Shown here in pieces: positions 29,630 through 32,774 of a DNA stretch of 64,000 nt. Every line of letters begins with the position of its first letter. The stretch's first letter is position 1. The position numbers and the translations under genes are program-made. This DNA is from Hyphomicrobiales bacterium. GTDB taxonomy: Bacteria; Pseudomonadota; Alphaproteobacteria; Rhizobiales; RI-29. The notes under the pieces are model-generated. The model searched no databases. It was not told where the DNA came from and saw only the letters and a program-made list of their open reading frames with translations. The stretch lies in contig WGLQ01000019.1 of assembly GCA_016125495.1 (NCBI GenBank), positions 62,001 through 126,000 of the forward strand. Reading direction: 5' to 3'.

Positions 29630-30109
29630 ATGAAGACGTTCACCGTTTACGAGCCGACCGGCAACGGGCGCGACGCCATGGCGCGGGCCGAGTCCTTCGT
29701 GCTGGTGAGCGAGGGGTTTTCCTGGTTCGCCTTCCTGCTCGCACCGGTCTGGGCGATCGCCAACCGGGCGTGGCTGGTGCTCGTCGGGGTCATCGCGGCG
29801 GCGATCGGGATCGAACTGCTGCTCCAAGCGATCGGTGTCGCCGAATGGGCGCGGGGCTTCGCCGGGCTGTTGGTCAGCCTGCTGATCGGCCTCGAGGCGC
29901 CGAACCTCTTGCGCTGGACCCTCGAGCGCAAGGGCTACCGTGAGGCCGGCATGGTCAGCGGCGCCGACCGGGCGCTGTGCGAGCTGCAGTTCCTCGAGGC
30001 CTGGGCCGCGGGGCTGGAGCGCGGGGGCGCTGGCCGGGAGGATGGTCCGCAGGTGTTCCGTGGCGGCCACGCCAGTGTGACGATCCAAGGCTCCGGGGTG
30101 GCCGGCTGA
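29630..30109 (+). CDS. DUF2628 membrane protein
   Basis: This 159-residue protein belongs to DUF2628, whose function is unknown. It has a cytosolic start ([11 protein letters not shown]) and hydrophobic stretches [36 protein letters not shown] and [19 protein letters not shown], then a soluble tail. DUF2628 genes commonly sit between hisB and hisH in Hyphomicrobiales, which hints at a conserved but unexplained link to the his operon. Its stop codon overlaps the hisH ATG by one base. Confidence 0.85.
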
Positions 30110-30762
30110 TGGAGCGGGTGGTCATCATCGACTACGGCTCCGGCAACCTTCATTCGGCGGCCAAGGCGTTCGAGCGGGCGGCCCGCGAGAGTGGCGCGGC
30201 GGTTTCCATCGAAGTGAGTGGACGCCCGGATGCGTTGGCGCGGGCCGACCGTGTCGTGCTGCCGGGGGTCGGGGCGTTCGGCGATTGCCGCGCCGGGCTC
30301 GATGCGGTGCCGGAATTGATCGAGACGCTGGAGGCGCGCGTCATCGCGGGCGGGCGGCCTTTCCTCGGCATTTGCGTCGGTATGCAGCTCATGGCGACGC
30401 GCGGGCGTGAACATGGCGAGCACGCCGGGCTCGGCTGGATTGGCGGCGAAGTGGTCGCGATCGAGCCGGCGGACCCGGCGCTCAAGATCCCGCACATGGG
30501 CTGGAACACGCTCACGAGCCTGCGTCAGCATCCGGTGCTCGAGGGCATCGCGACCGGGCCGAACGGGCTCAACGCCTATTTCGTGCACTCGTTCCACATG
30601 CGGGTGGCGGCGCGCGGGGACGTGCTGGCCGAGACCGATTACGGCGGGCCGATCACCGCCATGGTGGCGCGCGACAACCTCGTCGGCACCCAGTTCCACC
30701 CGGAAAAAAGCCAGCGGCTCGGGCTCGCGCTCATCGCGAACTTCCTGCGCTGGCGGGTGTGA
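30109..30762 (+). CDS. hisH: Imidazole glycerol phosphate synthase, glutamine amidotransferase subunit
   Basis: HisH hydrolyses glutamine and channels ammonia to HisF. The 217-residue class I amidotransferase has [11 protein letters not shown], the nucleophile elbow FLGICVGMQ with the catalytic Cys, and the His/Glu pair in [18 protein letters not shown] and [10 protein letters not shown] are further family blocks. It is translationally coupled to DUF2628. A leftward orphan gene separates it from hisA. Confidence 0.96.
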
Positions 30763-30784: not shown

Positions 30785-31174
30785 TCAACCGAAGAGGTCG
30801 AGCTGGCCGGGGATCACCCAGCGGCCGGTGCGCCGGTGGCTCTCGAACCGGGTGGTTGCGACGCGCTGCGGATAGAGGGCGGCGAAGATGCGCCGGGCGT
30901 GTTCGTAGCTCGCCGGATGGCGGCGGAACTCGATGATCTCGTAGATGCGGCGGCGGTCGACGTCGTAGCGCTCGGCGAGCCGCTGTTTCGGAAGGCCCAG
31001 CCAATGGGCGATCCAGATCACCACGGCCTGGCGGTAACCGATGCGCCGGCTCGCCCGCTGTATCACCGCCGGTCTCCCGCCAGCTGCCGCGGAGCCAGCC
31101 TCGAACGAGATGCGTTGGTCGCGCGCGGAGCCGCCGATCGGGGTGCCATCATGACCGTTCGCTGCAAGTGACAA
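30785..31174 (-). CDS. Orphan protein with HTH-like segment and C-terminal sliding-clamp-binding motif
   Basis: I do not recognise this family. The 129-residue protein is encoded against the his operon between hisH and hisA. About the first 40 residues are low-complexity. The core [38 protein letters not shown] looks like a helix-turn-helix, and [10 protein letters not shown] follows. The C-terminus is GQLDLFG; QL(S/D)LF is the established consensus for beta-clamp binding by bacterial replication and repair proteins, where it often sits at an exposed terminus. The start is uncertain: TTG at 31174 with GGAG upstream, or GTG at 31066 just before the HTH region. The clamp partner is inferred from the motif only. 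Confidence 0.65.
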
Positions 31175-31203
31175 GTGGGGCGCTCCGTGCCAAAGAGCCC
31201 GCC

Positions 31204-31950
31204 ATGAGGCTCTATCCTGCCATAGACTTGAAAGACGGCCAATGTGTGCGCCTGCGCCAGGGCGACATGGCGGCCGCGACCGTGTTCAACGACGATCCGG
31301 CGGCGCAGGCTCGGGACTTCGAGGCGTTGGGTTTCAGCTATCTCCACATCGTCGATCTCAACGGTGCTTTCGCGGGAGCGTCCGTCAATCGGGCGGCGGT
31401 GGAGGCGATCCTCGCCACGGTGACGATGCCGGTGCAACTCGGGGGCGGCATCCGCGACATGGCCGGCATCGAGGGCTGGCTCGAGAAGGGTGTCGCGCGG
31501 GTCATCCTCGGTACCGTCGCGGTGAAGGACCCGGAATTGGTGCGTCAGGCCTGCAAGCGGTTCCCGGGGCGCGTGGCTGTCGGCATCGATGCGAGGGACG
31601 GCTTCGTTGCCGTCGAGGGGTGGGCCGAGGCGAGCACGCTCGGGGCGGTGGAGCTGGCAGCGCGTTTCGCGGATGCGGGGGTCGCCGCTATCATCTACAC
31701 CGACATCGCTCGGGACGGCCTGCTCCGGGGGCTCAACTTCGCGGCGACGGCAACGCTGGCTGCCACCACGCCGATCCCGGTGATCGCCTCGGGTGGGTTC
31801 GCTTCCCTCGCCGACGTCGAAGCGCTGCTGCGTCCGGAAAACGCCAAGCTCGACGGGGCGATCGTCGGGCGCGCGCTCTATGACGGGCGCGTGGACGCGA
31901 GGGTGGCCCTGCGACTGGTGGGGGAGCGAAACCGGGGGAATCACTCATGA
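31204..31950 (+). CDS. hisA: HisA: phosphoribosylformimino-AICAR-phosphate isomerase
   Basis: HisA is the (beta/alpha)8-barrel isomerase that opens the ribose of ProFAR. The 248-residue protein has the catalytic Asp in [15 protein letters not shown], then [13 protein letters not shown] and [14 protein letters not shown]. The second catalytic Asp lies in [13 protein letters not shown], followed by [17 protein letters not shown] and [16 protein letters not shown] overlap couples it to the arginase-like gene. Confidence 0.96.
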
Positions 31951-32774
31951 ATTTGCCGACGGTCGCCCTCATCTACGCCTACTGGCCGAACCAGCCTTTC
32001 GGTGTCACGTGGTGTGATCTGCCGTGGGCGATCCGCTCGGCCGGCTTGCCGGAGCGGCTGACCAAGGCCGGTCACCAGGTGGTCGAAAGTGTCCTCATGG
32101 TGGAGGACGAGAGCCCGGAGGAGCTGCGCGCCGGCTTTCGGTTGGCGGGCCAGATCGCGGAGGAGGTGCGCAAGGCGCGGGCGGCCGGCGAACTGCCGGT
32201 GATCCTCTGTGGCAGCTGTGCGCTGGCGGCGGTCGGTGGGGTCGCGGGGCTCGGCGCGGACTGCGGAATCGTGTGGCTCGATGCGCATCCGGACATGAAT
32301 ACGCCCGAGACGACCACGAGCGCGCTGCTCGAGGGCATGGCGTTGGCGGTGGCGACGGGGACGGCTTGGCGCGCGATGGCGCGCGAGCATGCCGGGCTCG
32401 AGCCCGCGAGCCTCGGGCGGACGGTGCTGGTCGGGGCGAGAGACATCGAAAGGGCCGAGGCCGAGACGTTGCTTTCGGCCGGGGTGCCGGAGACGAAGGA
32501 GGCAGGTGTGGTCCTGGCGCGGCTCGCCGGAGCGCAACAGGTCTACGTGCATCTCGACATGGACGTGCACGATGCGCTCGCCGTGCGCAGCAATGCGTTC
32601 GCGGTGGAGGATGGGCCGGATGTCGCGACCGTCCGCGAGATCCTCACGGCCATCGACGGGCTCGGCGCGCTGGCCGTGACGGGGCTCGATCCCCAGGCCG
32701 AGGATGCCGAACGGGCACTCGAGATCGCCATCGAGCATATCGCCGCCGTGGCGGCAGGCTGGAGGGGCGAATGA
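31947..32774 (+). CDS. Arginase/ureohydrolase-fold protein embedded in the his operon
   Basis: This 275-residue protein belongs to the arginase/agmatinase/formiminoglutamase superfamily. The second metal motif is intact ([12 protein letters not shown]-x-H-x-D), and D-x-D of the third motif is kept ([11 protein letters not shown]). The first motif, normally GGDHS, reads CGSCA here, so the metal-binding His appears replaced by Cys. The third motif also lacks the usual following Asp-Pro. The protein may bind metals differently or not at all, and its substrate is unknown. It is locked between hisA and hisF by four-base ATGA overlaps at both ends, so it must be co-translated with them. Family assignment is good; any link to histidine metabolism is inference. 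Confidence 0.82.

Follow-up and report, generated by a model that had tools for sequence, protein, structure and literature searches.

The window analysed here, a stretch of 64,000 nucleotides from a Hyphomicrobiales bacterium, contains an open reading frame that lies between hisH and hisA and opposite to them in strand (Table 1). In the ORF list it is the minus-strand frame 30785-31174, 129 aa long from a TTG and ending in ...GQLDLFG. The G+C content of the frame resembles that of its flanks. The sequence-only reading that drew attention to the locus took the frame at this full length; its existence stands, but the TTG start at 31174 is probably wrong, a GTG at 31066 (93 aa) being likelier. 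In 68 homologues the gap between hisA and the earliest core-proximal ATG has a median of 142 bp. The GTG, with a gap of 137 bp, fits that median, and the TTG, 29 bp from hisA, does not. The 36 extra N-terminal residues of the TTG form are modeled with low AlphaFold2 confidence (block means 50-66), and the closest homologue, L015, lacks them, given the ATG that we chose for it. The true start, as judged from these comparisons, is probably GTG 31066, yielding a protein of 93 aa.

Table 1. Features of the hisH-hisA region, in window coordinates (residue numbers are those of the 129-aa ORF).
Feature	Position	Strand	Remarks
Probable gene: HTH, linker and C-terminal clamp-binding motif (predicted)	30785..31066	-	GTG start, 93 aa
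Full ORF of the sequence-only reading	30785..31174	-	TTG start, 129 aa
Predicted tri-helical helix-turn-helix, residues 45-82	30929..31042	-	AF2 helices, conserved columns, VIA-align
C-terminal predicted beta-clamp-binding motif QLDLF	30791..30805	-	Loose form in 79/79 complete homologues
Divergent spacer to hisA (given the GTG 31066 start)	31067..31203	.	
hisH, convergent neighbour	30109..30762	+	Stop at 30762
hisA, divergent neighbour	31204..31950	+	ATG at 31204

The protein had been assigned to no known family, and the searches agree. Neither Pfam nor NCBIfam gave a match above the curated cut-off for the family, PADLOC gave none, and PHROGs gave a single weak one. A sequence search of the PDB returned one match (E 0.88). 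Nor is the family described in the titles and abstract openings among the matches listed for the literature on sliding-clamp ligands and Hyphomicrobium. No relative was found in a phage and plasmid search with homologue L013 or in a viral-contig scan with alignment A3.

Relatives are found close to home. A protein search matched 10 of 61 related genomes (some by HTH-only proteins), and an alignment search found matches in 37 of the 397 genomes screened within the order. The 37 comprise 23 genomes with full-length members that carry the tail (the window's included), one with a remote member (G071) and 13 with short HTH ORFs; seven of the 13 short ORFs were inspected and all seven lack the tail. 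The full-length genomes bear the family labels f1, f2, f10 and f46, and G071 bears f30. The remote f30 member ends in KQKELF and adjoins a hisH gene; its genomic context is uncertain because G071 has 5% contamination and a further hisH that lies upstream of hisA. Genome contigs were also scanned: the window protein alone as query confirmed no relatives, and an alignment-based scan of named genomes, seeded with HTH-only peptide patterns and confirmed by the whole protein, confirmed 89, of which 80 were retained. The record titles of 57 of the 80 name Hyphomicrobium, Filomicrobium or Hyphomicrobiaceae; that of L092 names Hyphomonadaceae. A sample of 385 genomes of the class gave two matches, one in the window's genome and one to an HTH-only ORF from this order. 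The family appears, in the genomes covered here, solely within the window's order. The idea that diverged copies might be hidden upstream of hisA in other families was dropped: a profile run on 60 hisA-upstream regions outside f1, f2, f10 and f46 (three of them short, at 760, 624 and 130 bp) gave nothing at E <=1. G302 also has a family match, and in G123 a second, weaker one (C6:769374-769610, minus strand) lies roughly 1 kb away from the copy at the his locus.

The C-terminal tail was surveyed in 79 homologues, L098 being excluded because its end is cut off; this set shares genomes with the 23 aligned full-length members, and the two counts are not additive. Q-x-x-[LMF]-[FL] occurs within the last 16 residues of all 79, with 65 fitting Q[LM]x[LM]F and 50 fitting QLxLF. 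Against a background of 495 other ORFs, called mechanically at a length of at least 150 aa across the homologues' loci and the window, the strict form is found in none and the loose form in two. In the alignment columns of the motif, Q is present in 61 of 61 sequences, L in 57 and F in 60, the preceding columns scoring mostly 0.2-0.6, and Q124 and F128 are kept in 23 of 23 aligned full-length members. The codons at the motif are used synonymously (CAG 57 and CAA 22; TTC 43 and TTT 35); since third bases vary, selection acts on the protein. In 60 of the 79, D or E stands one or two positions after the motif; in the window protein the motif is followed by Gly and then the carboxylate, and across homologues by 0-9 residues. 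Some tails are less canonical: ten of the 79 have P, S, A or G at position 2, three have F at position 4, L061 has QLSML, and in the remote f30 member position 2 is occupied by K. The sequence-only reading had equated QLDLF with the sliding-clamp consensus and had named homologues without the motif as a finding that would speak against a clamp ligand. The tail does have the canonical form, Q-aliphatic-x-[LM]-[FL], it is conserved beyond its surroundings, and every homologue with a complete end retains at least its loose form.

In the excerpted account of clamp ligands, QLxLF is the highest-affinity consensus and QLDLF the strongest peptide; some ligands carry the motif in a C-terminal tail, and flanks are mostly negative, with a negative flank or a free carboxylate after the motif (PMC11139829). 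The polymerases of these bacteria provide a comparison. Of six best-hit DnaE proteins, five, that of the window's genome among them, have a motif of this class near residues 931-993 of the sequence read (GQIGLF, GQDDLF, GQNDLF, GQADFF and GQLGLL). The sixth (G219, L218) lacks one at that recurrent site, and so do the second DnaE copies (L224-L228). The loose pattern is weak evidence by itself, as it also matches elsewhere inside DnaE. The Y-family polymerases (PF00817) were uninformative as a control: two DinB-type tails end in a PPDLF-type sequence, and the pattern picked out no clear motif in the other five proteins. Taken with its conservation, the tail makes it quite likely that the protein binds the DnaN clamp, as predicted from the motif.

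An HTH-like core had also been proposed. The AlphaFold2 model, built from 61 sequences, has a mean pLDDT of 79.3 and places helices at 47-59, 63-70, 74-81, 88-100, 102-105 and 124-128. The first three are confident, yet the fold matches are weak: Foldseek found nothing below E 0.001 in the PDB (best E 1.1) and no match among viral models. Re-examination of Foldseek's own 613 chains with VIA-align returned mostly HTH domains at Z 3.9-5.7, those of IstA, Tc3 transposase and resolvase included; a Z of up to 5.7 is a common level and says nothing on function. The model, with these weak matches to HTH domains, lends support to the proposal, and the predicted fold of the core is a tri-helical helix-turn-helix. 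It very likely binds DNA, again as a prediction from the fold. Elsewhere in the order, short HTH-only ORFs (e.g., L035-L040) have a related HTH core but stop soon after it, and the tail with its motif is present in none of these six.

The place of the gene is also conserved. In 74 of the 79 homologues hisA lies divergently within 600 bp. The antisense position between hisH and hisA had been called odd for a compact operon, and odd it is: of 60 regions in other families, 55 allowed both hisH and hisA to be located, and in 45 of these the two genes are at most 100 bp apart or overlap. As the HTH family was not found there, the gene belongs to lineages in which the his operon is split at this point. 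Five copies (L106, L107, L110, L112 and L113) have no hisA in the flank examined and retain QLxLFE. These five also have an upstream sequence of their own in common (GTTGCCGCAATGTTCTG...).

In 62 of the 79 loci a small gene of the same strand follows within 1,600 bp (e.g., L005:924-1370, minus strand, and L041:4534-4899, plus strand). Its protein begins MRTYLISYDL..., Asp8 is invariant in 33 aligned members, and the model has a beta-alpha-beta-beta-alpha-beta fold. The best PDB matches by Foldseek are Cas2 proteins, with 5h1o (E 3.8e-4) as the sole match below 0.001. Pfam offers no naming family: the first member has no match and the others have weak, scattered ones. The Cas2-fold gene is absent beside the window gene, and as a query it was unmatched in the window's genome; it matched four of 121 genomes. 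In two other families, tblastn located Cas2-like ORFs in the hisH-hisA gap (L151 and L166). These, and L170 by eye, are divergent from hisA in families without a detected HTH gene. Part of the Hyphomicrobium loci have a second small gene past the Cas2-like one (L005:301-705, minus strand, and equivalents; MKTYLIHHTPKFAG...).

The spacer between the gene and hisA carries a conserved DNA footprint in Hyphomicrobiaceae. CTTGAC/GTCAAG is present in 68 of 74 spacers, AGATTGCT in 28 and CGATCAATCG in 20, as against a shuffled maximum of seven for any 8-mer and three for any 10-mer (a single shuffle within 20-base blocks); the 74 spacers come from related loci and so are not independent. In L041-L120 (e.g., L077) the order upstream of hisA is GCCATCAGATTGCT ... 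GCGATCAATCGC ... GTCAAG, and the spacer alignment has 66 rows. Part of the footprint resembles a core promoter, and CTTGAC/GTCAAG is a likely -35 element of hisA, though by eye the spacer elements could belong to the promoter of either the HTH gene or hisA. In the window's own spacer the Hyphomicrobiaceae footprint was not recognised by eye. A regulon built on two of the spacer elements was considered and rejected, site counts in nine genomes being about what an order-2 Markov model predicts after training on the loci examined. One element has 39 exact sites (4.3 per genome, 4.7 expected), and the other has 23 sites with one mismatch (2.6 per genome, 2.4 expected), four of them at the his locus. 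Reversed controls yielded 0 and 1 sites and are too strict a standard, because the model expects far fewer control than element sites (0.07 and 0.26 per genome). Nineteen of 20 GCGATCAATCGC sites fall inside stop-free frames of at least 150 aa. With the elements at Markov frequency elsewhere, control, if there is any, is local. That the protein controls the hisA spacer in this way is an appreciable possibility suggested by the sequence, to which we give somewhat less than an even chance.

We favor the view, with reasonable confidence, that the protein is a two-part adaptor in which the HTH grips DNA and the tail docks on the DnaN clamp. Residues ~45-105 would form the DNA-binding HTH domain, and a variable linker would join it to the C-terminal Q-L-x-L-F, which would insert into the hydrophobic pocket of the sliding clamp. 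By binding the spacer footprint, the HTH protein could regulate its own gene, hisA, or both. The clamp could deliver the protein to DNA behind the fork, or the protein could recruit the clamp; on either course DNA binding would be tied to replication. We infer these steps (binding to DnaN, binding to the footprint, and clamp delivery or recruitment) from the sequences. At this locus the role is perhaps clamp-coupled control of the hisA region. That replication-coupled regulation is the main role of the protein we put forward tentatively, as rather unlikely on present grounds. A somewhat more doubtful proposal is that of a chromosomal transcription or chromatin factor tied to the clamp, its HTH reading DNA only during or just after passage of the fork, and in Hyphomicrobiaceae joined by a non-CRISPR Cas2-fold partner in a two-gene module by hisA.

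Known clamp ligands offer partial parallels. Pol II, Pol IV and the Pol III alpha tail are described as having likewise a C-terminal QLxLF-class motif with an acidic residue or carboxylate after it (PMC11139829); the window protein, in contrast, is a small HTH protein without a polymerase domain. The clamp-binding IS transposases, according to the extract consulted, are also DNA-binding proteins with a C-terminal Q-L-x-L-F, and the clamp of Acidiphilium, an alphaproteobacterium, is reported there to bind transposase tails of this type (PMC4549789). The window family differs from them in having no catalytic domain and in being fixed beside hisA in 74 of 79 cases. By description, gp55 and gp33 of T4 are a precedent for a clamp epitope on a transcription protein: in these late-transcription proteins C-terminal clamp epitopes couple transcription to replication (PMC9690074). 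They differ from the window family in being phage proteins, and they work with RNA polymerase. The same partial source gives SocB of Caulobacter as a case of clamp blocking and TnsE as one of transposon targeting (PMC9690074); RipA of Streptococcus pneumoniae is summarized elsewhere as a clamp-acting toxin (PMC12795458). SocB and RipA are thus, by description, also bacterial proteins that act on the clamp, as is predicted for the window family; they differ in being the toxins of toxin-antitoxin pairs (SocAB and RipAB).

It is virtually certain that the HTH-tail ORF is a genuine gene. Spurious antisense ORFs are abundant in high-GC genomes, and the window's ORF list has many, but conservation at the protein level across families, the synonymous codon change at the motif and the conserved gene context leave a negligible chance that the frame yields no protein. 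The sequence comparisons describe it instead as a conserved coding gene with a conserved motif and a conserved place divergent from hisA. The divergent position in 74 of 79 loci, the conserved spacer footprint and the HTH model would also suit a regulator that acts only locally, on transcription of hisA and of its own gene, its tail binding not the clamp but RNA polymerase, a protease or a partner protein. We regard this as improbable: the motif matches the clamp consensus at each position, and the five copies without hisA in the flank keep QLxLFE, so the tail does not track hisA. That 0-9 residues follow the motif, together with its position-wise fit to the clamp consensus, argues against a carboxylate-dependent degron.

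That the protein inhibits the clamp or serves as a toxin-like checkpoint, as SocB or RipA would exemplify, with the Cas2-fold gene as partner or antidote, seems to us quite improbable. A DNA-binding domain is unnecessary for plain clamp blocking, the window gene has no such partner beside it, and a chromosomal position fixed in 74 of 79 cases, with no match by PADLOC, in the phage and plasmid search with L013 or in the viral-contig scan with A3, speaks against it. It draws support from the existence of small clamp-acting proteins, SocB (PMC9690074, as excerpted) and RipA (PMC12795458, likewise), and from the Cas2-fold gene itself, which follows in 62 of 79 loci and matches Cas2 in Foldseek at E 3.8e-4. 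Descent from a transposase deserves mention since IstA and Tc3 transposase HTHs are among the VIA-align rows (Z 5.0) and, in the part of the source at hand, Q-L-x-L-F ends are frequent in IS transposases (PMC4549789). The gene would then be a domesticated N-terminal HTH fragment of an IS transposase that has kept or regained the clamp motif, and would now serve as a host DNA-binding protein or be a relic. Yet every fold match is weak, the Pfam and NCBIfam scans name no transposase family, the next-best profile matches come from short HTH-only ORFs within the order, the gene is syntenic in 74 of 79, and an ORF of 93-129 aa that ends at the motif has no space for a catalytic domain; we consider such an origin highly improbable.

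Most of the known clamp ligands in bacteria are polymerases, repair proteins, replication regulators or transposases. If the two-part adaptor view is right, the list of clamp partners would gain a small stand-alone HTH DNA-binding factor with a strictly kept motif, and Hyphomicrobiaceae and their relatives would provide a simple case of replication-tied DNA binding. The motif is short and readily removed for a genetic test.

On the other side of hisA, between it and hisF, the window has a plus-strand ORF (31947-32774) with a DAHPD motif, which we take to be arginase-like; L002 has a similar ORF after its hisA.
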